A DNA stretch of 64,000 nucleotides. It comes from Streptomyces umbrinus. Lineage in GTDB: Bacteria; Actinomycetota; Actinomycetes; Streptomycetales; Streptomycetaceae. Position numbers and translations under genes: made by a program. This document shows positions 14,793-30,339 of this stretch, in pieces (position 1 is the first letter of the stretch; each line of letters starts with the position of its first letter). The stretch spans positions 7,626,001 through 7,690,000 of the forward strand of contig NZ_JAUSZI010000002.1 in the NCBI RefSeq assembly GCF_030817415.1, given 5' to 3'. The notes below the pieces were generated by a model. That model saw only the letters and a program-made list of their open reading frames with translations. It did not search any database and was not told where the DNA came from.

Positions 14793-14996
14793 TAGGGCCT
14801 GTCTGACAATTCCCTCCCCCAGCCTCCGGCCGGGAGGTGCCCCCAGCCTCACGACGCCATGCACGCACTCTCGCCGCACCGGGCGCAGAGCCAAGTACGT
14901 CCAGTACGAGGCTCTACGCCCGGCACGCCGAGAGCACGCACCTGACGCCGCGAGGCCGCCCTCCGGGCGACGACGGGAATTGTCAGACAGGCCCTA
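14793..14996. mobile_element. 204-bp MITE-like element with perfect 22-bp terminal inverted repeats
   Basis: The arms at 14793-14814 (starting TAGGGCCTGTCTGACAATTC) and 14975-14996 are perfect reverse complements over 22 bases. The interior is itself a long imperfect palindrome: CTCTCGCCGC pairs with GCGCCGAGAG-like sequence, CGGGCG with CGCCCG, AGAGCC with GGCTCT, and AGTAC with GTAC around the centre near 14895. It has no coding capacity. The right arm supplies the TAG stop codon of the FHA gene (14996-14994). The whole resembles a non-autonomous element mobilised in trans by a transposase not present here. No clear target duplication is seen because the flanks are repetitive. Confidence 0.8.
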
Positions 14997-16397
14997 GCCC
15001 CGTCGGACCGTGATCGTCGTCCACGCGCCCACGTGCACCCGGTCGCCGTCCTGCAGCGGTACGGGGACGAAGGGCTGGATGGGCTCCTCGGCGCCGTTGA
15101 CCGTGGTGCCGTTGGTGGAGTTCTGGTCGACGACCGCCCAGCTGCCGTCGGGCTGCTGGACGAGCACCGCGTGCTGGTGCGAGACGCCCGGGTCCTCCGG
15201 CGGCACCGCCAGGTCGATGTCCGGGGACTCGCCCGTGGAGTGACGGCGGCGGCCGATGGTGATCTGGTTGCCGGTGAGCGGACGCTGCTGCTCGGGGGAG
15301 TACGCGGGCAGGTTCAGCCCCGCGGCCTCCGGTCCCGAGCGCTGCATCATCGCCATGAAGTACTCACGGTCGGGCCCGATCGTGATGCTCCACGACAGCG
15401 GCTGCTGCTGGTAGACGGGCGGCGCCTGCGTCGCGCCGGGCTGCGGGTAGCCGTAGCCACCGCCCGGACCGCCACCGGGGCCGGGAGGGCCGCCGGGACC
15501 ACCAGGACCGCCGGGCGTACCGGTCGACGGGGGCGGGAGCACCCAGTCGTCCTCACCGCCACCGAAGGACTGCCCTCCGGGACCACCGGGACCACTAGGT
15601 CCACCGGGTGCCTGAGGGCGCCCGGTCTCCTGCGGGTACGCGGGCGGAGCGGGCGGACCGGACTGCTGGTACCCCTGCGGAGCACCGGGACCGCCCGGAC
15701 CGCCAGGACCGCCGAGACCGTTCGGACCGCCGGGGCCACCGGGCCCACCCTGGCCGCCAGGTCCACCGGGACCGTTGGGTCCGCCGGGAGGCCCGCCGGG
15801 CCCGCCGAAGCCGCCAGGCATCCCGGGTCCCGTGCCGCCCGGGCCGGGCGGCGGCGGAACCGGTCGTGACGGGTCACCGGGGAAGCCCGAGGGGTTCTCG
15901 CCGTACGGCGGGATCGGCTCGGCGGGCCGGTTCATCTGCGAGGGCCGGGAGCCCTGGTAGTCGTACCCGCCGGGGGCGCCACCGGGCTGTCCGGGCGGCT
16001 GCTGCTGGAAGCGCAGCGCCGGGTTCTGTCCACCGGGACCACCAGGACCGGGACCGGGACCGCCGCCGGGCCCGGGGGGGCGCGGCGCGGCCGGGGTGTA
16101 CGAGGTCGCGGTGTTCGTCAGGAAGTTCCACCGGCACTCCTCGCAGAACGGTGCCCCGCCCTCACGCGGAGTACGGCACTGCGGGCAGAGCTCGGCCGAG
16201 GGCGCGTCGGGCACCGCGGAGAGATGCGGGCGGCCGCCCTGGCCGGGCGGCGGGGGCGAACCGGGCGGCGGATAGCCGTAGCCGGCCGCCGGGGGCGGCG
16301 GTGGAGGTGGCGGGGGCACGGCACCGGCCATGCGGTGACCGCAGACCTCGCACCAGTCGTCGGAACCCGACTGGTGTCCGTTCGGGCAGGTCGGCAT
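14994..16397 (-). CDS. FHA-domain protein with two N-terminal zinc ribbons
   Basis: A 467-residue protein, last gene of the PknG-type operon. Residues 1-23 form a ribbon ([20 protein letters not shown]) and about 70-92 a second ([18 protein letters not shown]). About 95-330 is a long Gly/Pro-rich, collagen-like linker of GGPGGPG repeats. The C-terminus (about 376-467) is a forkhead-associated domain with IGRRRHS, SHQHAVL and [10 protein letters not shown], the phosphothreonine-binding signatures. By analogy with GarA/OdhI it could be a target or reader of the kinase in the same operon, though it lacks their short N-terminal phospho-Thr motif. Its TAG stop is provided by a MITE arm, so the original C-terminus may have been altered. 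Confidence 0.9.
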
Positions 16398-16514
16398 GTC
16401 GGCGCTTCCCCCTCTCCTGTTCCGGCCCGAGAGGGCCGCAAATCGTGCAAACCGCTTGCGTACTGCTGGTTACTGCCTGCTTGTTGCCGCGCTCGCAACC
16501 GAGTGCGTACCGCT

Positions 16515-17861
16515 CTACTTCTTTACACGGACAGTCTTTGTGGACCGTGTCTCGAGAGTCATCTCGTCGGCCTCCGCGACCTTCGCCTTCAATCGCACAG
16601 TACCTGCCGCGGCGTCGACCACGTCCACCACCTTCGAAAGCAGTTTCGCCGTATCCGCGTTTCCGGAGGCGCTGGCGAGCTGAACGGCCCGTCCCAGCTT
16701 GGCCGTTGCGCCGTCGACATCTCCCGCTTTGCGGGCATCCAGGCCCTGTTGGATGACTTGTGCCAGTTCCGCCTGACCCGTGTAGTGCGCGACCTGCGGG
16801 TTGATCGACGTGGACGCCGCCATGTCGTCGGTCCACACGGCCCGTACGAGACCCTGGGCGCCCAGCGTCTGGGCGGTGCCGTCGCCCTGCGGGATCACCA
16901 GGGAGACGCGGGCGGCGAGCATCTCCTGGCCGAGGTCGGCCTCGGGGACCTCGACGCACACGTGGTAGTCGCGGGACTCGTCCCCCCAGGAGCCGGTGGG
17001 GTAGTCCCCGGCACGCGGTCCCGCCTCCGTGCGGCGGTCGGTCAACTCCTCGACCGTGGGCGCGACCTGCTTGACGAACTTGATCGACGTGCCGACCGGG
17101 GTCCACAGCCGCAGCGCCACGTCCGCGACCTCCTTGCCCATGGCCGTCTCCATCATCTGCGTGAAGTCGGCGGACAGGCCCGCCGGGTCGGCGACGATGT
17201 CGGAGGTGCCGAGCAGCGCGGACGCGATCCCGGTGACCTCCTTGACCTCCCAGTCCGTGCCGACGCCCCGCGCGTCCGCGGTGAACCGGCCCGCGCAGGC
17301 CTCCAGGGCGGCCTTGAGGTCCTCGGGCGACTCGTGTTCGTTGCGGCCGTCGGTGAGCACGATGCCGTGCCGGATGGCGACGTCCGCCGAGGACAGCAGC
17401 CGGTCGGCCAGCCGCAGCCAGGTGCCGATCGCCGTGCCGCCGCCCGCGCTCAGCTTGCGCAGCGCCTGCTTGGCCTGGTCGCGGGTCTGCGCGTCGGCGA
17501 CGGCGAGCCGGCCGCCGCCCGGGTAGACCTCCTTGGCCACATGCGTCCCGCCGATCACCGCGAAGTGCACCCCGTCGCGCACCGCGTCGATCGCCGCCGC
17601 CGTCGCGTCCCGGGCGCCCCGCATCTTCGTCGGCGGATAGTCCATGGACCCCGAACAGTCGACCATGATCGCCACGGCCGCGTCCGGGCCCTCACCCGGC
17701 GTGTAGAGGTGGGGTGCCGCCACGGCACTGCCCACCGTGCCGCCGCCGGTCGAGGTCACCGTGACGATCGCGTTGACCTCGCGGCCGCCCTCCGGCAGGT
17801 ACTCGTTCTGGTAGACGTCCACCGAGAACTGCGGCACGTTCGACTTCGAGAAATTGGCCAT
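16515..17861 (-). CDS. VWA-domain protein
   Basis: A 448-residue cytoplasmic protein. The von Willebrand A domain (about 70-250) carries a complete MIDAS: DCSGSMD (DxSxS), a conserved Thr in the GGGTAIG loop and the later Asp in TDGRNEH. VWA domains bind protein partners through a metal ion. Around it are beta-sandwich-like segments, and the C-terminal 80 residues are helical (ARKAGDVDGATAKLGRAVQL), resembling a TPR-like repeat. ATG 17861 (ANFSKSNVPQF) is chosen because the in-frame extension to 17891 lacks conservation features. The operon places it between the PP2C phosphatase and the FHA protein, suggesting a scaffold or target in the same phospho-signalling pathway. Confidence 0.88.
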   Translation of the reverse strand: MANFSKSNVPQFSVDVYQNEYLPEGGREVNAIVTVTSTGGGTVGSAVAAPHLYTPGEGPDAAVAIMVDCSGSMDYPPTKMRGARDATAAAIDAVRDGVHFAVIGGTHVAKEVYPGGGRLAVADAQTRDQAKQALRKLSAGGGTAIGTWLRLADRLLSSADVAIRHGIVLTDGRNEHESPEDLKAALEACAGRFTADARGVGTDWEVKEVTGIASALLGTSDIVADPAGLSADFTQMMETAMGKEVADVALRLWTPVGTSIKFVKQVAPTVEELTDRRTEAGPRAGDYPTGSWGDESRDYHVCVEVPEADLGQEMLAARVSLVIPQGDGTAQTLGAQGLVRAVWTDDMAASTSINPQVAHYTGQAELAQVIQQGLDARKAGDVDGATAKLGRAVQLASASGNADTAKLLSKVVDVVDAAAGTVRLKAKVAEADEMTLETRSTKTVRVKK

Positions 17862-17976
17862 GCCTTCTCTGCTCCCCCTCAGGACTCCCACGAGGTGTGG
17901 GTGATGTCGGTGGGCGGACCGGTCCCCTCCGGTCCTGGCCCCTCCGAGGCCGATGCCGTTTCGTACCGCTTCGGCC

Positions 17977-19395
17977 TCAGGCCGATCCTGCCCCCTGCGG
18001 CGGGGCCGGGAACGGCACGACGGCCACTGTTACGTTGTCGTGGCCCCCGCCGTCCAGCGCGTGGCCCACCAGGACCTGGGCGCTGTGCAGCGGACGGTCC
18101 GCGGCGTCGGGCGGGATGACCTCGGCCATTTCCTCCGCGGCCTCCGCGTAGTTCCACAGTCCGTCGGTGCACACCACCACTACACCCGGCCGGTCCGGCT
18201 TGAAGGAAGCGGTGTGCGGCTCCAGTTCGTACGCGTCCGCCCCGAGCCAGCCCGTGATGGCGTGGGCGCGCTCGTCCGCGTACGCCTCGGCCTCGTTCAT
18301 CAGGCCCGCGGCGACCATCTGGGCGGCCCAGGAGTCGTCCTCGGTGAGCCGGGCCGGGGGCGACGACCGGTCCACGGGCACCCAGTAGGCGCGGCTGTCG
18401 CCGACCCAGCCGACGATCAGCAGGCTGGGGGTGACGACGGAGCCGACGATGGTGCAGGCGGGCGCGTTCACGTGCGGCTGGTGCTCGTGGGCCGGAGCGC
18501 TGCGGTCCGCCAGGGAGTTGACCGCCTCCGAGGCCGCGAGGATCGCGTCGTGCATCGCCTGCTGCGGGTGCGTGCCGCGCGGCAGGGCCGCCAGGAGGGA
18601 CTCGTTGGCCGCGCGGGAGGCGGCCAGGGAGGCCTCGTCGGGGCGCGTCGCCGAGGAGACGCCGTCGCAGACGATCGCGACGACCGCCGGCGAGCCGTCG
18701 GACAACGCGGTCGAGGACACCGTGAACGCGTCCTCGTTGCGGTGGTGGCGCAGACCCCGGTCGCTGACCGCGGCCACCGAGCCCAGCTCCTGCTCCATGT
18801 GGTCGCGCTCGCGCGGCTGCGCGTGCCCGCAGTTCTCGCAGTAGCCGTCCCGGTCGACCTGGCCCGCGCGGCAGGCCACACAGACCTTCAGACCCGCGGG
18901 GGGCGTCGGAAGGTCGGCCGTACGCGGATCGGCGGGCGGCGCCTCGGGAGGCAGCGGCGCGGCGAGCGGGTACTCGTCCGGTTCCGCGGACGCCTGAGCG
19001 GCGGGCCGGGCGCCGGGTTGGGCTGCGGGCTGCGGCGCATGCGCGGGGGAGGGCGGCGGCGGTGGTGAGGCGGGGGCCGACGGCGGCTGCGCGGGCCGGT
19101 CGAACCGAACCCCCGGGCTGTCGGAGCCCGCCGACTCGCGGCCGTCGATGTCCGTCGGCAGGACCACGGGCGCGGGTGTGTCCGAGGTGTCCGCCTCGGG
19201 GGCGACCGGCCAGTCCACGGAGGCCGCGGCCGAAGGGGGCCGCGGTGCGGCCCCGTTGACGGCGACCGTGGGGTTGTCGTCCGGCGGCGCGGGTACGGCG
19301 GTCAGGTCGTACCCGCACGCACCGCAGAAACGGTCCCCCGACTCCAGCGGCTCCTCGCAGCTGGGGCAGGCGGCCAGTTGAGGCATCTGCGACAT
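17977..19395 (-). CDS. PP2C-type protein phosphatase with two zinc ribbons
   Basis: A 472-residue serine/threonine phosphatase of the PPM/PP2C family, the likely counterpart of the kinase encoded 3 bases upstream. A zinc ribbon at 10-27 (CPSCEEPLESGDRFCGAC) and another at about 172-190 (CVACRAGQVDRDGYCENC) are separated by an Ala/Pro-rich linker. The catalytic domain follows (about 205-470): SDRGLRHHRNEDAF, CDGVSS, GWVGDSRAYW, TEDDSWAAQMV and GHDNVTVAVV, including the Asp residues that hold two Mn/Mg ions. ATG 19395 is preferred to a TTG one codon earlier. Confidence 0.92.
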   Translation of the reverse strand: MSQMPQLAACPSCEEPLESGDRFCGACGYDLTAVPAPPDDNPTVAVNGAAPRPPSAAASVDWPVAPEADTSDTPAPVVLPTDIDGRESAGSDSPGVRFDRPAQPPSAPASPPPPPSPAHAPQPAAQPGARPAAQASAEPDEYPLAAPLPPEAPPADPRTADLPTPPAGLKVCVACRAGQVDRDGYCENCGHAQPRERDHMEQELGSVAAVSDRGLRHHRNEDAFTVSSTALSDGSPAVVAIVCDGVSSATRPDEASLAASRAANESLLAALPRGTHPQQAMHDAILAASEAVNSLADRSAPAHEHQPHVNAPACTIVGSVVTPSLLIVGWVGDSRAYWVPVDRSSPPARLTEDDSWAAQMVAAGLMNEAEAYADERAHAITGWLGADAYELEPHTASFKPDRPGVVVVCTDGLWNYAEAAEEMAEVIPPDAADRPLHSAQVLVGHALDGGGHDNVTVAVVPFPAPPQGAGSA

Positions 19396-19398
19396 CAA

Positions 19399-22146
19399 TT
19401 ACACCCACGTCCGGGGGCGGTAGCGGTTGGCGCGCTCCACCAGATCGATCCTCTCCTCGCCACGCTGGGCGAGCCGGGCCAGTGTCCGGTACGAGCGCTC
19501 CAGACCGAAGCGCAGGCCCCGCTCGTCCAGGTCGCTGCCGAGCAGTACGGTCCGCGCCCCAGTGCTCGGCGGGGCGGAACCCTGGCTACCGGAGAGTACC
19601 CAGTCCAGGGCGCAACCAAGGACCTCTGTGGACAACTGCTCGCGGCGCACCGCGTCCAGACCGTACCCGTCCAGCGCCTCGACCTGGGCCGCGGCCGAGG
19701 TCAGGTCGTCCAGGAACGGGGCGTCGGGAACCCCCGCACCGGACAGCCCAGGACCGGGAACTCCCGTACCCGGCACGCCCGCGGCGGGCACCGCCGTACC
19801 GGACGTACCCAGAGCCGGTGGGCCCGGTGGGGGCGGCGCGGTCTCGGCGAGCCGCTGGCGCAGCCGGGCCCGGACGGCGGCGACCCGGGCCGCCGTGTAG
19901 TGGATCGACGCCTCCGGCACCGACTCCAGCGTCCGTACGGCGCCACGGCGGTCGCCCGCCGCGAGCTGGACGCGGGCCAGGCCGAACGCGGTGCTCACAT
20001 AGCTGGGGTCGGTGGTCCACACCAGGCGGTAGTACTCGGCGGCGTTGTCCAGCTGCCCGAGGACCTCCGCGCACACGCCGAGGGCCAGCTTGGGCGCGGG
20101 CTCGCCGGGGAACGCGTCGTAGATCGCGTCGAAGGACACCGCCGCGATCTCGTGGTCGCCGGTCGCGAGCGCCGCCACGCCCCGGTACCAGACCACCCGC
20201 CAGTCGTCGGGATGGTCCGCCTCCAGGGCTTCGAGCGTCCTGGTCGCCTGGTCGAGCTCGCCCATCTCCAGGCGCGCCCGCAGCTCGCGCAGCCGCAGCT
20301 CCAGGGAGCCGGTGGGCGCCGCCTGCAGCGCGGTGATCAGCTCGGCCGGTGCGGATGTCATCAGCCCGGCCAGGAAGCCCGCGTTCGGGTCACCCGGGTC
20401 CACCCGCGGCACCGGCAGCGCGAGGGCCGCGGCGGCGGTGTTCAGCGGCTTGATGAGGGAGGCCTGAGCGGCCGCGGAGGGCGGCGGGAGGAACGGCGTG
20501 CCGTTCGGCCCGGCGGTCCCGCTCGCCGCCGTCGCCCCGTTCGTGCCGTTCGTTCTGTTCGCCCCGGCCGTCAGCGCGGGCACGCCCTTCTTTCCCCGTA
20601 CGGGATCGACCCGCACGCCCAGCCGCGACACATCGCCGGCCAGCGAGCCGAACAACTCCGTGTCCGTGACCTTCAGTTCGGGTCCGAACAGGGTGGACAG
20701 CGAGGGCCGGGCGCGTCCCGTCTGCACGGAGACGACCTCGCGCAGCACACCCGTGAGCTGCTCGGCCATCTCCTGCGCGGAGGCGAACCGGCGGGCCGGG
20801 TCCGGGTCGGTGGCGCGCACGAGGAGCCGGTAGAAGGACTCGTACGTGCGGAAGACCTCGATGTTGTCGGGGTCGGGCAGGGAGTCCACGAAGACGTTCG
20901 TGTAGCCCTGGAAGTCGAAGGTCAGGACCGCCAGTGTGCGGGCGACCGTGTAGAGGTCCGAGGCGACCGACGGGCCGACGTCGGCGACCTCCGGCGCCTG
21001 GTAGCCGACCGTGCCGTAGATGGCCGACTCGTCGTCGTCCATCCTGCGCACCGCGCCCATGTCGATCAGCTTGAGCTGATCCTCGGTCTGTATCGCGTTG
21101 TCGACCTTGAAGTCGCAGTACAGGAGGTTGCGGCTGTGCAGATGGCCGAGGGCCTCAAGCGCCTCGATGCCGTACGCGCAGGCCTGCTCCACCGGCAGCG
21201 GATCGCGCTTGCCGGTCGCCGTGCGGCGGCCGTTGGCGATCTCCTTGAGGGACTTGCCGCCCACGTACTCCATGACGATGTACCCGTCCAGCGAACCCGT
21301 CCGCTGGTCGAGGTGCTCCACGAAGTTGTAGATCCGCACGATGTTGGAGTGCTCGATCTCGGCGAGGAAGCGGCGCTCGGAGATCGCGGCCTCCATCGCG
21401 TCCTGGTCGCCCGTGTCGAGGAGGCCCTTGAGGACCACCCAGCGGTCGGACACCGCACGGTCGACGGCGAGATAGACCCAGCCGAGCCCGCCGTGCGCGA
21501 GGCAGCCCACGACCTCGTACTGGCCGTGCACGATGTCACCGGTCTGCAGCTTCGGCACGAACGAGTACGGGTGGCCGCACTTGGTGCAGAAGCCCTCCGT
21601 GCGGCCGGGCCGCTCGCCGCGCGAACGCCCCACCGGCGCACCGCAGTCGGAGCGCGAGCAGAACCGCTTGCGCTCGGGGACCTCGGGGTTCTCCTGGATC
21701 ATCACGCGCGGGTCGGGCCGCGGCACGTCCGGGACCTGCACCAGGCCGACGCCGAGCCGGCCGCGCCCCGAGGACCCGGCGGTCGAGCCGGAACTGCGCA
21801 CCGACACCGAACGGCCAGTCGTCCGGCCCGACACCGAGCGCGAGAGACGGCCCGACACCGAGCGCCGCGACTGGGACGACCGCGACGAGGCGCGTGAGGA
21901 GGCGCGGGAGCTGGAGCGCGAACTGGCGCTGCCCGAACTCCGCGAACCGCTCCTGCCGCCCCCGGTGATCCCGGTCGGCGGGGAGCCCACCATGCCGGTC
22001 GACGAGACGACCGGGGCCAGACCGCAGGTGTCGCAGTACAGCTCGCCGCCGCCCACGTCCTCGTACGACCCCGAGCAGCCGGGCCGCTGACACGGTTGCT
22101 GTGAACTCTGCCCACTCGCTTCGGTGTTGACGTTCTGCTGACTCAC
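19399..22146 (-). CDS. pknG: PknG-like serine/threonine protein kinase with zinc ribbons and TPR domain
   Basis: A 915-residue soluble kinase with PknG architecture. Two zinc ribbons are seen, at 19-44 (CQRPGCSGSYEDVGGGELYC, then DTC) and 163-191 (CSRSDCG and CTKCGHPY), joined by a Ser/Arg-rich linker. The kinase domain runs from about 208 to 475: a Gly-loop in VVGCLAHGGLGWVYLAVD, Lys in WVVLKGLLD, catalytic loop YCDFKVDN (for HRDxKxxN) and metal site LIDMGAVRR. The C-terminal 400 residues are TPR-like helices (LGVCAEVLGQLDNAAEYYRL). GTG 22146 overlaps the preceding stop as GTGA. In mycobacteria PknG regulates 2-oxoglutarate metabolism via FHA proteins; here GlnH-like and GlnX-like genes precede it, as in that system. 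Confidence 0.93.
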   Translation of the reverse strand: MSQQNVNTEASGQSSQQPCQRPGCSGSYEDVGGGELYCDTCGLAPVVSSTGMVGSPPTGITGGGRSGSRSSGSASSRSSSRASSRASSRSSQSRRSVSGRLSRSVSGRTTGRSVSVRSSGSTAGSSGRGRLGVGLVQVPDVPRPDPRVMIQENPEVPERKRFCSRSDCGAPVGRSRGERPGRTEGFCTKCGHPYSFVPKLQTGDIVHGQYEVVGCLAHGGLGWVYLAVDRAVSDRWVVLKGLLDTGDQDAMEAAISERRFLAEIEHSNIVRIYNFVEHLDQRTGSLDGYIVMEYVGGKSLKEIANGRRTATGKRDPLPVEQACAYGIEALEALGHLHSRNLLYCDFKVDNAIQTEDQLKLIDMGAVRRMDDDESAIYGTVGYQAPEVADVGPSVASDLYTVARTLAVLTFDFQGYTNVFVDSLPDPDNIEVFRTYESFYRLLVRATDPDPARRFASAQEMAEQLTGVLREVVSVQTGRARPSLSTLFGPELKVTDTELFGSLAGDVSRLGVRVDPVRGKKGVPALTAGANRTNGTNGATAASGTAGPNGTPFLPPPSAAAQASLIKPLNTAAAALALPVPRVDPGDPNAGFLAGLMTSAPAELITALQAAPTGSLELRLRELRARLEMGELDQATRTLEALEADHPDDWRVVWYRGVAALATGDHEIAAVSFDAIYDAFPGEPAPKLALGVCAEVLGQLDNAAEYYRLVWTTDPSYVSTAFGLARVQLAAGDRRGAVRTLESVPEASIHYTAARVAAVRARLRQRLAETAPPPPGPPALGTSGTAVPAAGVPGTGVPGPGLSGAGVPDAPFLDDLTSAAAQVEALDGYGLDAVRREQLSTEVLGCALDWVLSGSQGSAPPSTGARTVLLGSDLDERGLRFGLERSYRTLARLAQRGEERIDLVERANRYRPRTWV

Positions 22147-23465
22147 GATTCCCCCCTCCGGTCCTGTGGTCCGCCGTGCCCGGGGACCCTGGGCACCAGC
22201 ACTTCGGCGGCCGCGTGCTGGTAGCGCAGCACCGCCTGTTCCGCCACACGCAGGTCGCAGGGCGCGCTCCACAGCATGCGGCGCGCCGCGTCGTACCGCT
22301 CCACCAGCAGCGGGTCCTCGGCGAAGCCGTGCCGGGCGACCTTCGCCTTGTACGCGTCGAGACGGCCGCGCAGCTCCGCGCGGACCGCGAGCGGCGCGGT
22401 GACCGCGGTCAACGACTCGCGGGCGCGCAGCAGTTCGTCGTCGGCCTTCGCCTCCAGGGACTCCAGGAGCGGCGAGAGGCGGTGCCACTGGGCGTGCCTG
22501 CGGTACTCGGCCGCCGTCGCCAGCTGTTCCTGCAGCGCGGTCGGCGGGCCGCTCACCGCGGGCACCTCGGACGCGGCGATCTTCGCGAGGACCTCGCCGC
22601 GGGCACTTCGCGCCTCGGCGAGCGTGCGGTCCGCGCGGCTCAGCACGTCCCGCAGCCGCACCAGCCGCGCCTCCGCGTCCTGCCGCACGGTGAGCACCGC
22701 GTCGATCTCGCGGCGCACCTCTTCCAGGGCGCGCGCCTCGCGGTCGTAGCGCGTGGTGTCGGGGCGCCCGCCGCCAGGCGCCGAACTGCCCTGCGCGGGC
22801 AGCCAGAAGTCCAGCGGATCGGACACCACCCGCTCGCGCAGCGTGGTCAGGGTGCGCGTGATCCGCTCCAGGTCGTCGCCCGACGGGTGTTCACCGGGCC
22901 GTACGCCCACGGAGTGCGCGAGCTGACGGGTGCGCTGCAACTCCGCGGCCAGTAAATCGATCCGGGCGGGCAGCGCCGACCACACGGCGTCGGCCGTCAC
23001 GACCATGTCCAGCGAGGTCGCGTACAACTCGTTCATGCGCTCCACGAGTTCGGCGAGCGAGAAGCGCTCGCTGAGCTTGCCCGTGCCCGCCATCGTGGGC
23101 GCGGCGGCCGTCGCGGACGCGCTGCCGGCGACCGTGACGCTCTGGCCGCGCAGCAACTCGGTGAGCTCCACGAGGTCGTCGCGGTTCGACCAGCGTCTGC
23201 GCGAGCGGATCTCACGCGCGGAACGCAGCGCGTCGGCGTACGCGTCGAAGTACGCCCACAGCAGGGAGATCGACGCCTCGGCGGCCCCCCAGCGCTCCTT
23301 GGTCGTACCAGTGAGCTCGGCGCCTTCGAGGAGTCTGCGGCCCGCGTGGTCCTGCAGGGCGAGGAGTGAGGTCTCGATGGCCTCGTGCTCCGCGCCGAGC
23401 CGCGCCAGCGCACGGTCCACCTCGTCCCGGTCCATCACCGGCCCGGAGGGTCCCGTGTCGCCCAT
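22143..23465 (-). CDS. Coiled-coil hypothetical protein of the PknG operon
   Basis: A 440-residue, helix-rich cytoplasmic protein with no recognised enzyme motif. Long Arg/Glu/Ala heptad-like stretches are seen, for example REARALEEVRREIDAVLTVR, RLVRLRDVLSRADRTLAEAR and the C-terminal RAELRGRLDAYKAKVARHGF. It has no signal peptide or membrane segment. ATG 23465 follows GAGGGGTGATCG. It sits between the glutamate-binding protein and the kinase, so it probably connects sensor to kinase or forms part of the complex, which is inference from position only. I know of no equivalent in the three-gene mycobacterial glnX-glnH-pknG set. Confidence 0.8.
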   Translation of the reverse strand: MGDTGPSGPVMDRDEVDRALARLGAEHEAIETSLLALQDHAGRRLLEGAELTGTTKERWGAAEASISLLWAYFDAYADALRSAREIRSRRRWSNRDDLVELTELLRGQSVTVAGSASATAAAPTMAGTGKLSERFSLAELVERMNELYATSLDMVVTADAVWSALPARIDLLAAELQRTRQLAHSVGVRPGEHPSGDDLERITRTLTTLRERVVSDPLDFWLPAQGSSAPGGGRPDTTRYDREARALEEVRREIDAVLTVRQDAEARLVRLRDVLSRADRTLAEARSARGEVLAKIAASEVPAVSGPPTALQEQLATAAEYRRHAQWHRLSPLLESLEAKADDELLRARESLTAVTAPLAVRAELRGRLDAYKAKVARHGFAEDPLLVERYDAARRMLWSAPCDLRVAEQAVLRYQHAAAEVLVPRVPGHGGPQDRRGES

Positions 23466-23558
23466 CGATCACCCCTCGCTTCGTGAAGAACTGCGTGAAG
23501 AACTTTTGTGAAGTACCGCGTGAAGAACTGTTCGTGAGGAACTACTGGAACATTCCGG

Positions 23559-24566
23559 CTACTTGTACTGGACCGCGGGCGGCCCGCTGCTCTTGCCGAG
23601 CGTCCCGGCGAGCCAGGTGTCGTACGACTTCTGCCAGTCGGCCTTGCGGTAGTCCACCAGGATCTGGTTGACCCGGCGGATCAGATCGGTTGCGTCCTTC
23701 TTCATCGCCACGCCGTAGTACTCGTCCGTGAACGGCTTGCCCTTGAGCTCGACCGTCGGGTCCTGCGCGGCCTGGCTCGCGGCGAGCGCGCCGTCGGTCA
23801 CCACGGCGTCGACCTCACCGAGCTGCAGCCGCACCAGGCAGTCGAGTTGGTTCGGCACGACGGTGTCGATGTTGGCGGACTTGGGGATGACGCTTCCCAG
23901 GTCCGCTTTCAGTTTGTCGAGGGCGATCGAACCCGACGCCGAGCAGATCCGCTTGTCCGCGAGCGTGTCGTCGTATCCCTTGATGTCCGACTTCTTCGGG
24001 GCGAGCACCTGCTGGCCGGTCTCGAAGTAGGGGGAGGAGAACGCCACGAGCTTCAGCCGGTCGCAGTTGATCGTCATGGTGCGCACCACCATGTCGACAT
24101 CGCCGCGCTGGATCGCCGGGATGCGCTCGTTGGTCGGGATGGCGCGGAAGACGACCTTCTTCGGGTCGCCGAGAATGTCTTGGGCGATCGCGTGCACGAG
24201 ATCGATGTCGAAGCCTTCCAACTCGGCTTTCTTCGTCTCGCTGTTCGGGTCGCGGTAGCCCCAGCGGTAGCTGTTCTGGTCGACGCCGACCGTCAGAGAG
24301 CCCTTCTCCTTGATCTTCTGGATGGTCGTACCGTCCTGGGGGCCGGAGCCCGGGGCCAGGCTCTGGTTCTGGGGGGCCGGGCACTTCTCGGCCTTGGCCT
24401 GCGAGCCCTGGGCCACCCCCTGGCCGTCGGCATCCGTGCCGCCGTCCTCGCGGCTCTGGGTCACCGGCAGCAGCAGCGCGAACACCGCCGCCAGGGCGCA
24501 GACGACCGCCATCGCAGCCACCCCGCCCCAGCCCCTCAGACTGGTCCGCAAACGCCGTGCGTTCAT
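23559..24566 (-). CDS. glnH: GlnH-like glutamate-binding protein
   Basis: A 335-residue extracytoplasmic amino-acid-binding protein (SBP_bac_3). Residues 10-35 are a hydrophobic signal or anchor (GWGGVAAMAVVCALAAVFAL) without a lipobox Cys, so it may stay membrane-tethered. The binding domain (about 75-325) contains GSLTVGVDQNSYRWGYRDP, ELEGFDIDLVHAIAQDI and YFETGQQVLAP, typical of glutamate/glutamine receptors. No ABC permease or ATPase lies nearby, supporting a sensing rather than import role as for mycobacterial GlnH. ATG 24566 is 7 bases after AGGGGG; an ATG two codons earlier (24572) is possible. Confidence 0.9.
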   Translation of the reverse strand: MNARRLRTSLRGWGGVAAMAVVCALAAVFALLLPVTQSREDGGTDADGQGVAQGSQAKAEKCPAPQNQSLAPGSGPQDGTTIQKIKEKGSLTVGVDQNSYRWGYRDPNSETKKAELEGFDIDLVHAIAQDILGDPKKVVFRAIPTNERIPAIQRGDVDMVVRTMTINCDRLKLVAFSSPYFETGQQVLAPKKSDIKGYDDTLADKRICSASGSIALDKLKADLGSVIPKSANIDTVVPNQLDCLVRLQLGEVDAVVTDGALAASQAAQDPTVELKGKPFTDEYYGVAMKKDATDLIRRVNQILVDYRKADWQKSYDTWLAGTLGKSSGPPAVQYK

Positions 24567-24580
24567 CGTCATGCCCCCTC

Positions 24581-26038
24581 TCACCGGTACTCCGAAAGCC
24601 TGCGCCCGATGCCGAGCACCGCGCCGGCCGCGGCCAGCACCGCGAGGACCGCGGCGCCCACCACAAGGCCGTTCATCGCGCCCCGGCCGTCTCCGGCGGC
24701 CTGCTTGAACTCGGTCTCCTCGTGGTCGATCGCCGCCTTCAGGGCCGCGTCGACGTTCCTGAAGCACTCGCCCGTCGGCTTCTTGTCGTCGGAGCCGATC
24801 ACCCGGTCCAGCGCGCCCTGGTAGTTGCCCAGGTTGTCCGCCACGCGGGCTTCCTCGTGCCGGTCCTTCCAGACCTTCATGTTGGCCGTCGCGTCCTGGA
24901 CCGGCTTCTCGCCCGCGCTGTTGTCGGCGAGGCCCTCGGCGGCGGCCAGTTTCGTGGTGAGGGCCTTCATCTGCTGCTCGTAGTCGTAGTCGTACACGTC
25001 CACGATGTCCGGTTTCTGGGGCGTGCCCACGTCCCTGGTCTCCGCGCCGCGGGCGACCAGTGTGAGGTTCTCGTTGCCCCGGGCCTTGAGCGAGGCGATC
25101 CGGGCGTCGTTGAGCGTGTTCAGCGAGCGGACCGCGTTGTCGTACGAGTCGTTCAGGCCGGCGCGGGCGACGCTGTGACCGACGACCAGCCACAGCAGGA
25201 CGACCGTGGAGGCGGCCGTGGCGGCGACCAGGCCGTGGTTCAGCACACGGTTCGTACGGCGGTAGTTGCGGTGCTGGGCCCAGGCGAGGCCGCCGATGGC
25301 GAGGACGCCGGCGCCGATCGCGATCCACGGGTAGGGCGTCGCGTCGTCGTAGTCGGCGCGCAGGCGCTGGTTCTCCACCGTGTAGAGACGCTCGGCGTCA
25401 TCGAGCATCACCTGCATCTTCGAGTTCGCGTACCGGAGGTAGGCGCCGCCGAGGGGGAAGCCCTGGCGGTTGTTGGCCCGGGCGCGCTCCACCAGGCCCT
25501 TGTACTCGGGCAGCATCCTGTTCAGCTTGGTGATGGTCTTCTCGGAGGCGGAGCCGGGTTCCGAGTTGGCCGCCGCGGTGACCAGCTTCTCCGCCGCGTT
25601 GTCGATGTCCCGCTCATAGAGGTCGCGGGACGCCTTCGTCTCCTGGCCGCCCGCGAGGAAGCCGCTGGACGCGACCGTGTTGGCGTCGGCGAGGGAGCGG
25701 TAGATCTCCGCAGCGTCGGCGCTCAGCGGCTGGCTGCTGTGCAGCACGTCGTCCGCGGCGGCCGAACGATCCGTCATCTGCCAGGCGGTGACCGCCCCGA
25801 ACGCGACGACGAGGAGGGCGAGCACCGCGCCGATGATGCGCAGCCGCCCGGGCTCGGTGGTCGCCGCGGCACGCAGCTGGTCCACGCCCTCCGCCCACGC
25901 CGTACGGCGGGGAAGCCCGGTGTCGGGCACGGCGGAGCGGACCTGCGGCCCGGGCGGCGGTGCCTGTGGCGGCACCGCGGGCATCGTGGGCGCGGGCGCC
26001 CCCGGTGGCGCCGCACCGCCCTTCTGCTGATATGTCAC
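24581..26038 (-). CDS. glnX: GlnX-like membrane sensor protein
   Basis: A 485-residue membrane protein, first gene of the signalling operon. A proline-rich cytoplasmic N-terminus is followed by four hydrophobic segments: about 68-90 (IIGAVLALLVVAFGAVTAW), 238-256 (IAIGAGVLAIGGLAWA), 270-290 (VAATAASTVVLLWLVVGHSV) and 458-476 (VVGAAVLAVLAAAGAVLGI). Between them lie two helical outside domains resembling four-helix-bundle sensor domains. This matches the layout expected for GlnX, the partner that relays GlnH occupancy to PknG in mycobacteria. The start is GTG 26038. The name rests on gene order and topology, not on a recognised sequence match. Confidence 0.75.
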   Translation of the reverse strand: MTYQQKGGAAPPGAPAPTMPAVPPQAPPPGPQVRSAVPDTGLPRRTAWAEGVDQLRAAATTEPGRLRIIGAVLALLVVAFGAVTAWQMTDRSAAADDVLHSSQPLSADAAEIYRSLADANTVASSGFLAGGQETKASRDLYERDIDNAAEKLVTAAANSEPGSASEKTITKLNRMLPEYKGLVERARANNRQGFPLGGAYLRYANSKMQVMLDDAERLYTVENQRLRADYDDATPYPWIAIGAGVLAIGGLAWAQHRNYRRTNRVLNHGLVAATAASTVVLLWLVVGHSVARAGLNDSYDNAVRSLNTLNDARIASLKARGNENLTLVARGAETRDVGTPQKPDIVDVYDYDYEQQMKALTTKLAAAEGLADNSAGEKPVQDATANMKVWKDRHEEARVADNLGNYQGALDRVIGSDDKKPTGECFRNVDAALKAAIDHEETEFKQAAGDGRGAMNGLVVGAAVLAVLAAAGAVLGIGRRLSEYR

Positions 26039-26145
26039 TCGACCTCCCCCATGGTCATAGGCCGGTCACCTCCGCCCGGGCGCCAGGAAGCGCGGGCAGA
26101 GGTACACGGCCGCAAGTATCGCCGCCGGGACTGACATCCGCACAG

Positions 26146-26203
26146 GCCTTGCCGCGATCTTGTTCCGATTGCAGCAAGGCCTTGTCCGGATCGCAGCACG
26201 GCG
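26146..26203. promoter_or_regulatory. Dyad and direct repeats upstream of the GlnX/PknG operon
   Basis: GGCCTTGC (26146-26153) and GCAAGGCC (26175-26182) are inverted repeats. Within and beyond them TTCCGATTGCAGCAAGG is imperfectly repeated as TCCGGATCGCAGCACGG. It lies in the 227-base gap between the csnK stop and the sensor gene start. It could be a terminator for the csn operon, an operator for the signalling operon, or both; there is no T-run. Confidence 0.4.
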
Positions 26204-26265
26204 AAGATCCCGTACCACCCCTGCCCATGAATACGCCAACCCGAACTGTTCGGTTCCCGGCGCGC

Positions 26266-27234
26266 TCAGACCCTCTCGTAAAACTCCCGCACGCGGGCGT
26301 GCGCCAGGGCCGGGGCCTCCTCGTGGTCGAGTCCGAGGAGGGCGGAGCCGAGGACCGGCCGGGCGATGACGACGCTGGGTACGGCCTTGGGGGCGCGCTC
26401 GGCCAGCAGTTCCCTTATCCGGTCGTCGAGTTGGGGGTGGCGGGCGGCCAGGACGCCCCCGCCGAGCAGGACCGGCGTCTCCTCGTCGAGCAGGTCGAGA
26501 CGGGTCAGGGCGACGACCGACATGGCCGTGACCTCGTCCGCGAGCCGGTCGACGAGCGCGCGGGCGACCGGGTCGCCGTCCGTCGCCGTGGCGAACAGCA
26601 CCGGCGTCAGCTCGTGACGCCTCGCGTGCTCGATGTGTTCCAGATGCAGGGCCTCGATCAGCGCGTACATGGAGTCGAGGCCGAAGTGCGCGGGCAGCGT
26701 GCGGGCCAGCGCGGTCGGACCGCCCCGCCCGTCCTCGGCCCGCGCCCCGTGCCACAGGGCCTCCTCGGCCAGGCCCCATCCGCCGCCCCAGTCACCGGAG
26801 ATACGGCCCAGGGCGGGGAAGCGGGCGACCCGGCCGTCGGGCCGCATGCCCACGCAGTTGATGCCCGCGCCGCACACCACGGCCACCCCGCGCGGCTCCT
26901 CCACACCGGCCCGCAGGATCGCGAAGGTGTCGTTGCGGACCTCCACCGTCGTCCCCCACGCGCGCGCGTGCAGCGCGGCGGCCAACTGCTCCTCCTCCAC
27001 GGGCAGATCGGCGTTGGCCAGACACGCCGAGACATGCTTCACGGAGTCGACGCCCGCCGCGGCGAAGGCCCGGCCGACGGCGTCCGCGACCGTGTCGACC
27101 GCCTCCCGGATGCCGACGACGGGCGGCCGGAACCCGCCGGCGCGCGCCGTGGCGAGCACGCTCCCGTCGTCCGCCACGACCGCGACGTCGGTCTTGCTGT
27201 TCCCCGCGTCGACGGCGAGGACCCGTGCGGTCAC
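26266..27234 (-). CDS. csnK: BadF/BadG-type sugar kinase of the csn operon
   Basis: A 322-residue ASKHA-fold kinase of the BadF/BadG/BcrA/BcrD family that includes N-acetylglucosamine kinases. The phosphate-1 loop is VLAVDAGNSKTDVAVV, a second ATP-site segment is GAGINCVGM, and GRISGDWGGGWGLAEEALW is the hallmark of the GlcNAc-kinase branch. It probably phosphorylates glucosamine released from chitosan oligosaccharides. GTG 27234 overlaps the csnH stop as GTGA. It is the last gene of the operon. Confidence 0.88.
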   Translation of the reverse strand: MTARVLAVDAGNSKTDVAVVADDGSVLATARAGGFRPPVVGIREAVDTVADAVGRAFAAAGVDSVKHVSACLANADLPVEEEQLAAALHARAWGTTVEVRNDTFAILRAGVEEPRGVAVVCGAGINCVGMRPDGRVARFPALGRISGDWGGGWGLAEEALWHGARAEDGRGGPTALARTLPAHFGLDSMYALIEALHLEHIEHARRHELTPVLFATATDGDPVARALVDRLADEVTAMSVVALTRLDLLDEETPVLLGGGVLAARHPQLDDRIRELLAERAPKAVPSVVIARPVLGSALLGLDHEEAPALAHARVREFYERV

Positions 27235-28496
27235 GCCCACGCGAGGTGCTCCCGGTTGTGCGCGATCAGCCGGTCGGTGAGGCCCTCGGCGTACGCGTAC
27301 TGGCCCACCAGGGGATGGGCGAGCAGCGCCCGGAACACCCGCTCGCGTCCCCCGCGCAGCGCGGCCTCCAGAGCCAGGTCCTCGTACGCGGTGACGTTGG
27401 CCATCAGCCCCGCGTACAGCGGGTCCACCGGGGCCACCGGCAGCGGGGTCGCCCCCGCGTGCCCGACCGAGGCCTGCACCTCGATCACGGCGTCGTCCGG
27501 CAGGAACGGCAGCGTCCCGCGGTTGTACGTGTTCACCACCTGGTACCTGCTCCCGCCCCCGCCCAGAAGCGACGCGGCGAGGTCCACGGCTGCCTCGGAG
27601 TAGTAGGCCCCGCCCCGCTTGGCGAGCAGCGCCGGCTTCTCGTCCAGCTCCGGGTCGCCGTACATCTTCAGCAACTCCCGCTCCATCTCCGCCACTTCCG
27701 CGGCCCGCGACGGCTTCGTACCGAGTTCTCGTACGACCTCGTCGTGCGCGTAGAAGTAGCGCAGGTAGTAGGACGGGACGACGCCAAGACGGTCGAGGAT
27801 GTCGCTCGGCATGCGCAGGGTGTCGGCGAGGGTGTCGCCGTGCTCGGCGAGCAGCTTGGGCAGGACGTTCTCGCCCTCGGGGCCGCCCAACCGCACACCG
27901 GTCTCCCAGGTGAGGTGGTTGAGGCCCACATGGTCCAGGTGCACATCGGCTGCGGTGACCCCCAGCATTCCGGCGAACCTCCGCTGGAATCCGATCGCCA
28001 CGTTGCACAGTCCGACCGCCTTGTGACCGGCCTGGAGCAGGGCGCGGGTCACGATGCCGACGGGGTTGGTGAAGTCGATGATCCAGGCGTCGGGGTTGGC
28101 ACGCCGTACGCGCTCGGCGATGTCGAGCACCACCGGGACCGTACGCAGCGCCTTGGCGAGGCCGCCGGCGCCGGTCGTCTCCTGGCCGACGCAGCCGCAC
28201 TCCAGCGGCCAGGTCTCGTCCTCGCCCCGGGCGGCCTGCCCGCCGACGCGGAGCTGGAGCAGCACCGCGTCGGCGCCCTCGACACCCGCGTCGAGATCGT
28301 CGGTCGTGGTGACGCGCCCGGGGTGCCCCTGCTTGGCGAAGATGCGCCGGGCCAGACCGCCGACCAGTTCGAGACGGTCGAGGGCGGGGTCGACCAGGAC
28401 CAGCTCCTCTATGGGCAGGGTGTCCCTCAGCCTCGCGAATCCGTCGATGAGTTCAGGGGTGTAGGTGGAGCCCCCGCCCACTACTGCGAGTTTCAT
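27231..28496 (-). CDS. csnH: Glycoside hydrolase family 4 enzyme (6-phospho-beta-glucosidase type)
   Basis: A 421-residue GH4 enzyme. This family hydrolyses glycosides by an NAD- and metal-dependent redox mechanism. The N-terminal dinucleotide fold is KLAVVGGGSTYTPELIDGF, the metal-binding Cys is in VGLCNVAIGFQRR, and HLDHVGLNHLTW is a further active-site segment; PDAWIIDFTNPVGI is also typical. In the csn context it should cleave imported glucosamine oligosaccharides in the cytoplasm, with or without prior phosphorylation. ATG 28496 is one base after the csnG stop. Confidence 0.92.
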   Translation of the reverse strand: MKLAVVGGGSTYTPELIDGFARLRDTLPIEELVLVDPALDRLELVGGLARRIFAKQGHPGRVTTTDDLDAGVEGADAVLLQLRVGGQAARGEDETWPLECGCVGQETTGAGGLAKALRTVPVVLDIAERVRRANPDAWIIDFTNPVGIVTRALLQAGHKAVGLCNVAIGFQRRFAGMLGVTAADVHLDHVGLNHLTWETGVRLGGPEGENVLPKLLAEHGDTLADTLRMPSDILDRLGVVPSYYLRYFYAHDEVVRELGTKPSRAAEVAEMERELLKMYGDPELDEKPALLAKRGGAYYSEAAVDLAASLLGGGGSRYQVVNTYNRGTLPFLPDDAVIEVQASVGHAGATPLPVAPVDPLYAGLMANVTAYEDLALEAALRGGRERVFRALLAHPLVGQYAYAEGLTDRLIAHNREHLAWA

Positions 28497-28497
28497 G

Positions 28498-29394
28498 TCA
28501 GCCCTTCACTCCGGTGAGCGTGACGCCCTCGACGAACGCCTTCTGCGCGAAGAAGAACACGAGGATCACGGGGGCCATGACCAGGACGGTCGCGGCCATC
28601 GTCAGATTCCAGTCGGTGTGGTGCGCGCCCTTGAAGGACTCCAGGCCGTAGCTCAGGGTCCAGGCGCCGGGATTCTCGGACGCGTAGATCTGCGGTCCGA
28701 AGTAGTCGTTCCAGGCGTAGAAGAACTGGAAGAGAGCGACGGCGGCGATGCCCGGCTTGGCCATCGGCAGGACGACCTTGAGCAGGGTCTTGAAGTCCCC
28801 GCAGCCGTCGACCTTCGCCGCGTCGATGTACTCGTTCGGGATCGTCATCAGGAACTGCCGCAGCAGGAAGATCGAGAACGCGTCCCCGAACGCCATCGGG
28901 ATGATCAGCGGCCACAGGGTGCCCGACAGATCCAGCTGCTTCGCCCAGAACAGGTACATCGGGATGATGATGACCTGCGGCGGCAGCATCATCATCGAGA
29001 TGACCAGCATCAACGACAGGTTCCGGCCACGGAAGCGGAACTTGGCGAGCGCGTACGCCACCGGAATGCTGGACACCACCGTCAGGACGGTGCCGCCACC
29101 CGCGTACAGAAGGGTGTTCTTCCACCAGGTGAGGAAGCCGGGCGTGTCGAAGACCTTCGCGTAGTTGCCCCACTCCCAGGTGTGCGGGATCAGGTCCCTG
29201 GTGAGGGTCTGGTTGTCGCTCATCAGGGAGGTGAGGACGACGAACACGAAGGGCAGGACGAAGAACAGCGCGGCCGCGACGCCGAGCGCGTGCACGGCGA
29301 TCCATTCGAGGAGGGCCTTGCGACGGGCGGTCCGCTCGGCGGGTGTGACCGGCGGCGCCACCAACTCCACGGGCTTGTCGAGTACTTGGGTCAT
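28498..29394 (-). CDS. csnG: Carbohydrate ABC transporter permease (MalG type)
   Basis: A 298-residue inner permease with six hydrophobic segments and the cytoplasmic EAA loop DAAKVDGCGDFKTLLKVVLP that docks on the ATPase. It works with csnF and csnE to import oligosaccharides. No ATPase gene lies in the operon, as usual for Streptomyces sugar importers served by the shared MsiK ATPase, which is known for the group and not seen here. It starts 3 bases after the csnF stop. Confidence 0.92.
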   Translation of the reverse strand: MTQVLDKPVELVAPPVTPAERTARRKALLEWIAVHALGVAAALFFVLPFVFVVLTSLMSDNQTLTRDLIPHTWEWGNYAKVFDTPGFLTWWKNTLLYAGGGTVLTVVSSIPVAYALAKFRFRGRNLSLMLVISMMMLPPQVIIIPMYLFWAKQLDLSGTLWPLIIPMAFGDAFSIFLLRQFLMTIPNEYIDAAKVDGCGDFKTLLKVVLPMAKPGIAAVALFQFFYAWNDYFGPQIYASENPGAWTLSYGLESFKGAHHTDWNLTMAATVLVMAPVILVFFFAQKAFVEGVTLTGVKG

Positions 29395-29397
29395 GGG

Positions 29398-30339
29398 TCA
29401 GTCACCTGCCTGGATGAGACCGCCCCGGCGCCGCATCAGGAACGCGGTGAACACCATGGACAGGGCGAACAGCACCAGCGCGACCACGCACGCGGAGCCG
29501 TAGTCGAAGCGCTGGAAGCCGAGGTTGTAGACGAGCTGCGGCAGGGTGAGCGTCGACTTGTCGGGGTATCCCGGTTCGAACTGCTGGCCCGAGCCGCCGA
29601 TGATCCCGGAGGCGACCTTCCCCGCGACCAGCGGCTGTGTGTAGTACTGCATCGTCTGGATCACGCCGGTGACCACCGCGAACATCACGATCGGTGAGAT
29701 GTTCGGCAGCGTCACGAACCGGAACCGGTGCCAGGCGGAGGCCCCGTCCAGCTCGGCGGCCTCGTACTGCTCCTTCGGTACGTCGAGCAGCGCGGCCATG
29801 AAGATGACCATCAGGTCGCCGACGCCCCAGAGGGCCAGCATGGTGAGGGCGGGCTTGGACCACGCGGCGTCCGTGAACCAGCCGGGCGTCGGCAGGCCGA
29901 GGTCGCCGAGGACCGAGTTGACCGGCCCCGTACCCGGGTTGAGCAGGAAGACGAAGGCCAGCGTCGCCGCGACGGGCGGCGCCAGGTAGGGCAGGTAGAA
30001 GAGGGTGCGGAACACACCCGTGCCCGTCTTGATCTTCGTGATCAACAGGCCGATGCCCAAGCCGAAGGCGACCCGCAGGGTGACCATGACGACCACCAGC
30101 CACAGGGTGTTGCGCAGCGCCGGCCAGAACATGGGGTAGTCGTTGAAGACGTAGTTCCAGTTCTCCAGACCCCGGAAGACGGGGACACCGAAGCCGTCGT
30201 ACTTCATGAAGGAGAAGTACACGGTCGAGATCAGCGGATACGCGAAGAAGACGCTGAAGCCGATCAGCCACGGCGACATGAAGGCGGCCGTGCGAAGCGC
30301 CGACCGGCGGCGCTTCGCACGCAGAGTGAGCGTGGACAT
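29398..30339 (-). CDS. csnF: Carbohydrate ABC transporter permease (MalF type)
   Basis: A 313-residue permease with a hydrophobic N-terminus (SPWLIGFSVFFAYPLISTVY) and six predicted membrane spans. The EAA loop is YEAAELDGASAWHRFRFVTL. It is followed 3 bases later by csnG and preceded 5 bases earlier by csnE, a tightly packed importer. The N-terminal Arg-rich stretch (LRAKRRRSALR) fits the inside-positive rule. Confidence 0.92.
   Translation of the reverse strand: MSTLTLRAKRRRSALRTAAFMSPWLIGFSVFFAYPLISTVYFSFMKYDGFGVPVFRGLENWNYVFNDYPMFWPALRNTLWLVVVMVTLRVAFGLGIGLLITKIKTGTGVFRTLFYLPYLAPPVAATLAFVFLLNPGTGPVNSVLGDLGLPTPGWFTDAAWSKPALTMLALWGVGDLMVIFMAALLDVPKEQYEAAELDGASAWHRFRFVTLPNISPIVMFAVVTGVIQTMQYYTQPLVAGKVASGIIGGSGQQFEPGYPDKSTLTLPQLVYNLGFQRFDYGSACVVALVLFALSMVFTAFLMRRRGGLIQAGD

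Follow-up and report, generated by a model that had tools for sequence, protein, structure and literature searches.

A conserved seven-gene pknG locus of Streptomyces umbrinus and its possible division into two signaling modules

Genes at the locus

We analyzed a window of 64,000 nucleotides from Streptomyces umbrinus (assembly GCF_030817415.1, contig NZ_JAUSZI010000002.1, positions 7,626,001 to 7,690,000, forward strand), the whole stretch of DNA considered here. Seven open reading frames (ORFs) lie between positions 26038 and 14994, all on the minus strand, in the order glnX-glnH-cc-pknG-pp2c-vwa-fha. The initial annotation of this DNA had described seven genes on one strand, running from a sensor to an FHA protein, and the ORFs and domain matches bore this out. 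The starts of glnH, pknG, pp2c, and vwa were corrected relative to the listed ORFs. The features are as follows (window coordinates).

24581..26038, minus strand: glnX, GlnX-family signal-transduction membrane protein, 485 amino acids, GTG start (start and ribosome site assigned by eye; NF058618)
23559..24566, minus strand: glnH, family 3 solute-binding protein, 335 amino acids, ATG start at 24566 or 24572 (SBP_bac_3)
22143..23465, minus strand: cc, all-helical coiled-coil protein (alignment, AF2 model)
19399..22146, minus strand: pknG, Ser/Thr kinase, 915 amino acids, GTG start at 22146, with N-terminal Cys pairs, rubredoxin, kinase, and TPR regions (Pfam)
17977..19395, minus strand: pp2c, ATG start at 19395, two zinc ribbons followed by a PP2C phosphatase (PP2C_2 and Zn_ribbon matches)
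16515..17861, minus strand: vwa, ATG start at 17861, VWA domain in a beta-sandwich with a C-terminal helical bundle, VWA_3_C (Pfam, fold match)
16518..16553, minus strand: C-terminal tail of the VWA protein, ETRSTKTVRVKK, with conserved Ser/Thr, a putative phospho-docking site
14994..16397, minus strand: fha, two zinc ribbons, Pro/Gly-rich linker, and C-terminal FHA domain (61.5 bits)
15027..15263, minus strand: FHA domain, residues 379 to 457, with G382, R383, S406, H409, and N429 conserved
22143..22146, minus strand: 4-base overlap of the cc stop and the pknG start (GTGA), read from the sequence
26039..26265, minus strand: intergenic region 5′ of glnX, likely promoter region

The pp2c start lies three bases past the pknG stop. 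A 227-base gap separates glnX from the next same-strand gene upstream, and a promoter scan of 26039-26265 returned no sigma-70-type match. Downstream of fha, a plus-strand frame that we read as a methyltransferase faces the cluster.

Conservation of the seven-gene set

The seven-gene set is far more widely conserved than the initial annotation supposed. That annotation had made the co-occurrence of the genes in other Streptomyces a point to check; all 20 Streptomyces loci that we fetched contain the seven genes in the same order, and the set extends well beyond this genus. Three of the 20 have one gene split between frames (fha in L087, pknG in L095, and cc in L098). A second family shows the same order in five of five loci. 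Of 99 genomes sampled from the order, 92 have a PknG_rubred match above the cutoff, as do 374 of the 392 Streptomyces genomes searched.

Among 40 further loci, hand-picked from other families and from paralogues, all seven genes were found in 16, and pp2c, vwa, and fha accompanied pknG in 23. The other 17 comprise two loci of family f113 and six of the seven loci of family f3 (which we take to be the Mycobacteriaceae), with glnX-glnH-pknG or the kinase alone, as well as L056 of family f89 (three genes), L063 (four genes), and the paralogous cassettes L061, L072, L078, and L080 to L083. The f89 loci, like L105 from Kutzneria, carry the sensor genes after fha. Outside the class, the full set is rearranged in L071, with divergent sensor genes, and stands in order in L131, a Solirubrobacteraceae metagenome-assembled contig (class Thermoleophilia). 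All seven genes also occur in order in L138 (Smaragdicoccus, Mycobacteriales). When named loci were chosen by the presence of VWA, 68 of 80 had the seven genes in order, a proportion conditional on this choice. Eleven of the remaining 12 loci are shorter than 15,000 bases, and the twelfth is L105. As the set occurs in other families, we rejected the idea that the extra genes are peculiar to Streptomyces.

The claim that mycobacteria lack the extra genes held for the f3 loci L066, L067, L068, and L073, which are without all four, and failed for one f3 genome, which holds a full extra seven-gene copy (L076). In a kinase tree of 53 rows (a quick tree rooted on paralogues, with several open forks), six f3 kinases from three-gene or solo loci formed one group; its sister was L076 (99 starred support), and the whole group lay among seven-gene loci. 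The plainest reading is that cc, pp2c, vwa, and fha were lost in the f3 line, although change counts alone cannot separate loss from gain. The mycobacterial operon of three genes appears to be a reduced version of the set.

Beside the operon, at window positions 26266-30339, permease-like genes accompany genes for a sugar-kinase-like protein and a family 4 glycosidase, and all 20 Streptomyces loci have the latter two within the 20-kb stretch that holds the cluster. Within the operon, the glnH-cc spacer (23466-23558) contains four near-copies of GTTCTTCACG, three of them exact, a repeat absent from the glnH-cc spacers of 27 other Streptomyces loci examined.

Sensor and kinase

GlnX is a member of its family by NF058618 (492 bits; cutoff, 250). 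With the mycobacterial equivalog NF041460, it scored 178.7 bits against a cutoff of 780 and is therefore only a subfamily member. GlnH matched SBP_bac_3 (91.9 bits) and the Mycobacterium tuberculosis GlnH structure 6h1u (E, 1.8e-45). By eye, its N terminus has a hydrophobic stretch and no canonical lipobox; unlike the window protein, GlnH of L044, L046, L066, and L131 has lipobox-like motifs. PknG contains PF16919 (rubredoxin), PF00069 (kinase), and PF16918 (TPR), all above cutoff, and matched M. tuberculosis PknG (2pzi; E, 1.8e-165). Residues that we read as family signatures were kept in at least 85% of the aligned sequences for the kinase (37 sequences) and for the PP2C and FHA proteins (26 each). 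We also counted Cys pairs before the kinase domain, but this count was confounded by sampling and upstream noncoding sequence and was not used. The S. umbrinus genome encodes a second PknG-like kinase next to a GlnX-like gene (L072, G000:C2:11313000-11332999), and this 20-kb locus gave no pp2c, vwa, or fha match.

Amino acid sensing by GlnH-GlnX-PknG, with GarA/OdhI as the effector, is established according to the available text of PMC6069109, PMC9769921, and PMC8546545, which describes direct GlnH-GlnX and GlnX-PknG contacts as not yet demonstrated. Of the Asp/Glu-binding residues of M. tuberculosis GlnH given in the accessible part of PMC6069109, we mapped R147, T162, R169, and D250 by eye as kept, S164 as Thr, and W232 as Gln. 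The window genes thus resemble the linked sensor, binding protein, and kinase genes of the mycobacterial and corynebacterial operon, whose conservation, including in Streptomyces, the text of PMC6069109 already states. The Streptomyces cluster differs in four more conserved genes (for cc, PP2C, VWA, and the zinc-ribbon FHA protein), in a GlnH that seems membrane anchored, whereas that of mycobacteria is a lipoprotein, and in the distance to its GarA-like gene (about 2 Mb). The text of the same three papers, as distinct from the gene neighborhoods drawn in Fig. 2B of PMC6069109, mentions no four-gene extension; more broadly, searches of the openly licensed literature, in the text that was accessible and not the figures, brought up no paper that describes the four extra genes with PknG or links PknG to archaeal ArnB.

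Phosphatase, FHA, and coiled-coil proteins

The PP2C protein carries zinc ribbons at C10/13/24/27 and C172/175/186/189. Those of the FHA protein (C4/H8/C16/C19 and C71/74/85/88) were read from the Cys pattern and fall under the Pfam cutoff. The FHA protein scored 37.2 bits with TIGR03354 (TagH/Fha1-type, of the type VI PpkA-PppA-Fha pathway), under the cutoff of 120.25.

GarA/OdhI, an FHA-domain regulator of 2-oxoglutarate dehydrogenase, is a PknG substrate in relatives. We rejected the reading that the operon FHA protein is GarA. The genome has a GarA-like gene elsewhere, at G000:C2:9657323-9657655, about 2 Mb from the operon; its product carries an ETTS motif and an FHA domain (189 bits, next best 62, and below the NF041660 cutoff of 200). 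The operon protein is therefore not simply the GarA counterpart and differs from it in two zinc ribbons, a long linker, and the lack of ETTS in the window translation. All 30 genomes tested have a GarA-like gene, including five Streptomyces that lack PknG, but the NF041660 cutoff was passed in only six. The Streptomyces GarA-like protein (L184, G000:C2:9656500-9658500) has an N-terminal zinc ribbon before ETTS, and the f3 one (L192) has none.

The cc protein had no Pfam or NCBIfam match at E 0.001, and a PDB fold search with its model (mean pLDDT, 89.6) found no match with E ≤ 0.001. Its alignment shows a conserved C-terminal motif (ELRGRLxAYxAK...APCDL). The cc slot of loci from families f7 and f83 is occupied by a protein of comparable length that shares this motif; scores with the cc profile were weak (36, 13, and 4 bits), and a three-sequence profile of these proteins aligned with the cc C terminus over 80 columns (probability, 97.7; E, 1.4e-12). 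In the f3 genomes G640 (C144) and G719 (C1), cc lies near an extra PknG copy, the one in G719 being L076.

The VWA protein

The VWA protein matched Pfam VWA and VWA_3_C, and the residues that we take to be the metal site were invariant across 21 sequences. Its fold was judged from the model of a homologue (L071, 59% identity to the window protein), which matched the three-part ArnB architecture with a metal ion-dependent adhesion site (MIDAS). The best full-length fold matches of the model were 4FX5 and ArnB, with the TerY model outside the comparison, and the L044 homologue is identical to the solved structure 4FX5. The proposal in the initial annotation that cc and VWA would be new components thus needs amending for VWA, which was not structurally unknown. 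PMC6509490 already notes that 4FX5 resembles vWA2/ArnB; the available portions of that paper and of PMC12852372 contain no mention of the gene neighborhood of 4FX5.

Of 125 intact VWA proteins (>400 bits) encoded in loci that also have fha, 122 carry a C-terminal tail pattern. A first version of the pattern matched 107 of 125 and was loosened after the tails had been viewed; therefore, the pattern describes the tails and does not test them. VWA proteins under 400 bits (L057, L070, and remnants) were left out of the count. In L081 and L082, VWA paralogues that neighbor a second PknG-like kinase have a zinc ribbon at the C-terminal end in place of the Ser/Thr tail. A second VWA-like stretch occurs at G753:C1:1282799-1283902 and in other genomes of family f117, within open frames at least some 970 residues long, and is perhaps a VWA fused to another part.

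Loss of the kinase in Streptomyces

We searched for cc in 21 Streptomyces genomes without a PknG match (18 from the set of 392 Streptomyces genomes and three more from that of 99 genomes of the order) and found it in 18. Four of these (L225 to L228) sit on contigs that break off within pknG or just short of it and were left out of the count of losses. No cc was found in G811 (79% complete), G818, or G914. In G914, a contig starting within pp2c carries pp2c, vwa, and fha; a search of G811 and G818 for fha gave no match.

In the 14 kinase-less genomes, pknG is deleted or fragmentary at the locus, and no PknG_rubred match exceeded the cutoff genome-wide. All 14 have lost glnX and glnH from the locus or carry them in damaged form, with remnants in L185, L216, and L219, the last on a contig that stops some 930 bases upstream of cc. 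In contrast, all 14 retain cc, pp2c, and fha, the last in two frames in L221, and four (L189, L190, L220, and L222) have an intact vwa. A Streptomyces tree was built from 69 of 98 available loci after named loci had been thinned by half; it is a quick tree with long-branch warnings. Mapped onto its 69 rows, the kinase state requires four changes or more, four being imposed by starred branches. Remnants of pknG lie beside pp2c in L185, L189, L193, L194, L216, L221, L222, and L224, which shows that the direction of change is loss. L189 and L190 have about 70 bases in common at the place of the pknG 3′ end.

Pairwise omega values for nine kinase-less pairs were 0.12 to 0.34 for cc, 0.28 to 0.46 for pp2c, and 0.20 to 0.53 for fha. 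For 40 kinase-bearing pairs, drawn at random from 190, they were 0.13 to 0.36, 0.26 to 0.54, and 0.21 to 0.59, respectively. The pairs share branches. These values gave no sign of relaxed selection on cc, pp2c, or fha after kinase loss. The initial annotation had seen in the locus one complete sense-write-erase-read pathway, a claim that is not supported, given the persistence of cc, pp2c, and fha without PknG and without a sign of relaxation, which makes the "erase/read" half independent of the "sense/write" half. The loss pattern suggests that VWA stands nearer the kinase and that cc, PP2C, and FHA together form a unit working without PknG, i.e., that a sensor-kinase(-VWA) module is joined to a separable scaffold-phosphatase-reader module.

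A two-module model

We regard it as an even call that the locus is an extended PknG signaling operon made of two coupled but separable modules. The model starts from the genes, their conservation and domains, the VWA fold, the losses, and the selection estimates; from these we infer a phospho-switch, the contacts between the proteins, the ligand, and the output target. In the input module, GlnH would bind an acidic amino acid outside the cell, GlnX would pass the signal across the membrane, and PknG would be activated, an order of events worked out in mycobacteria and corynebacteria and assumed here for Streptomyces. The ArnB-like VWA would be the closest partner of PknG and its likely substrate. 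In the output module, the helical cc protein may serve as a scaffold that holds PP2C and the FHA protein, both of which have zinc ribbons. PknG or another kinase would phosphorylate VWA, most likely in the C-terminal bundle or the conserved S-x-x-T tail, and the FHA protein would then dock on VWA, loosely by zinc ribbon and tightly by FHA, as ArnA does on ArnB. PP2C would reset the phosphorylation state of VWA, and the output module may also serve kinases besides PknG.

Several points weigh against this two-module model. The window GlnH has Gln at the place of M. tuberculosis Trp232, as mapped by eye. The sensor genes of kinase-less genomes were sought at the locus only, and intact copies of glnX and glnH elsewhere are possible; vwa was likewise sought at the locus only in nine of the 14, whereas a search of the other five genomes excluded intact copies elsewhere. 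The case for purifying selection once the kinase was lost uses pairwise estimates and assumes that the loss came before the splits, and fha is split into two frames in L221. The FHA protein had no ArnA match among solved sequences at E ≤ 1. Finally, VWA and FHA can be parted: fha stands beside a mere vwa remnant in three of the 14 genomes (L185, L216, and L219) and without a VWA found at the locus in seven, L083 retains the VWA tail without fha in its locus, and paralogous cassettes have VWA without FHA. With intact VWA missing at the locus in 10 of 14 and such paralogues on the other side, an obligate VWA-FHA pair is unsupported.

Alternative explanations

One alternative is that the locus is a strict bacterial Arn system, in which an obligate VWA-FHA complex has its phosphorylation state as the output and cc and PP2C are helpers. 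We consider this unlikely, although the VWA has the ArnB fold (a VWA in a split beta-sandwich with a C-terminal helical bundle) and a conserved Ser/Thr tail, vwa adjoins fha, and the FHA protein resembles ArnA in layout only, with N-terminal zinc ribbons and a C-terminal FHA domain. In the Sulfolobus archaellum module, the available text of PMC6509490 and PMC12852372 likewise describes control by kinase and phosphatase that responds to nutrients, a link that the PknG systems share. However, the archaeal enzymes are the ArnC/ArnD kinases and PP2A, whereas those here, PknG and PP2C, come from other families; the operon adds sensor genes and a cc protein; and its VWA and FHA proteins are not obligately paired.

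A single linear pathway, in which GlnH-GlnX senses, PknG writes, PP2C erases, and FHA reads, with VWA and cc as accessories and all parts dependent on the kinase, would fit the conserved gene order, the tight spacing, and the start-stop overlap. We think it decidedly unlikely, as the loss pattern argues strongly against it: the retained genes, with fha split in L221, show omega values like those of kinase-bearing pairs.

The cc-pp2c-fha genes might also be an independent system that flanks PknG by chance. Separable losses in both directions favor this, as f3 keeps glnX-glnH-pknG and kinase-less Streptomyces keep cc-pp2c-fha. Each of six genes flanking the window cluster occurs in between 8 and all 20 of the Streptomyces loci, yet none of the six turned up in 25 outside loci, where glnX, glnH, and pp2c were present in 25, vwa and fha in 24, and cc in 18 (hand-picked loci, excluding three-gene-only loci, paralogues, and the truncated contig L070). 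Synteny within Streptomyces therefore proves little, whereas conservation across families does count, and we rejected plain synteny. The association is kept over several families and in the two loci outside the class (rearranged in L071 and in the same order in L131). Furthermore, among 394 genomes of the class, cc occurs in 84 of 140 with PknG versus 4 of 254 without (G369, G635, G658, and G667), and both gene sets share a phosphorylation theme. Chance adjacency thus seems very unlikely.

It is hardly credible that the GlnX-GlnH sensor captured a TerY-P-like kinase-PP2C-VWA triad, possibly related to stress or defense: such genes are adjacent here and carry zinc ribbons, as in the triads described in the available text of PMC11090510, and that of PMC7159879 mentions an actinobacterial kinase-PP2C-vWA neighborhood in another context, but the operon VWA has the full ArnB architecture, zinc ribbons are also on PP2C and FHA, sensor genes are present, the six nonkinase proteins had no PADLOC match at E 0.001, and the locus is found in most Streptomyces sampled and is not patchy. 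PADLOC matches were confined to the kinase domain, and a defense system was rejected on present evidence; a second look with VIA did not list TerY, which excludes nothing.

Implications

Going beyond the two-module model, and more tentatively, we suggest that the locus may represent an ancient actinobacterial Arn-like switch, in which an ArnB-type VWA is phosphorylated by PknG and read by an FHA protein on a helical scaffold with PP2C, the scaffold-phosphatase-reader part being a general hub for several kinases and mycobacteria having kept only the sensor-kinase half, which would make the pathway known from them the remnant of a larger system. The link would give 4FX5 a genomic context and connect bacterial and archaeal FHA-VWA signaling. 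PknG has been studied mainly as part of a three-gene mycobacterial and corynebacterial pathway; if its wider form is the seven-gene one, the textbook pathway would be a reduced one, and Streptomyces would be the place to ask how the output of PknG is set and reset. The naturally kinase-less species would provide a ready test of the scaffold-phosphatase-reader module alone.

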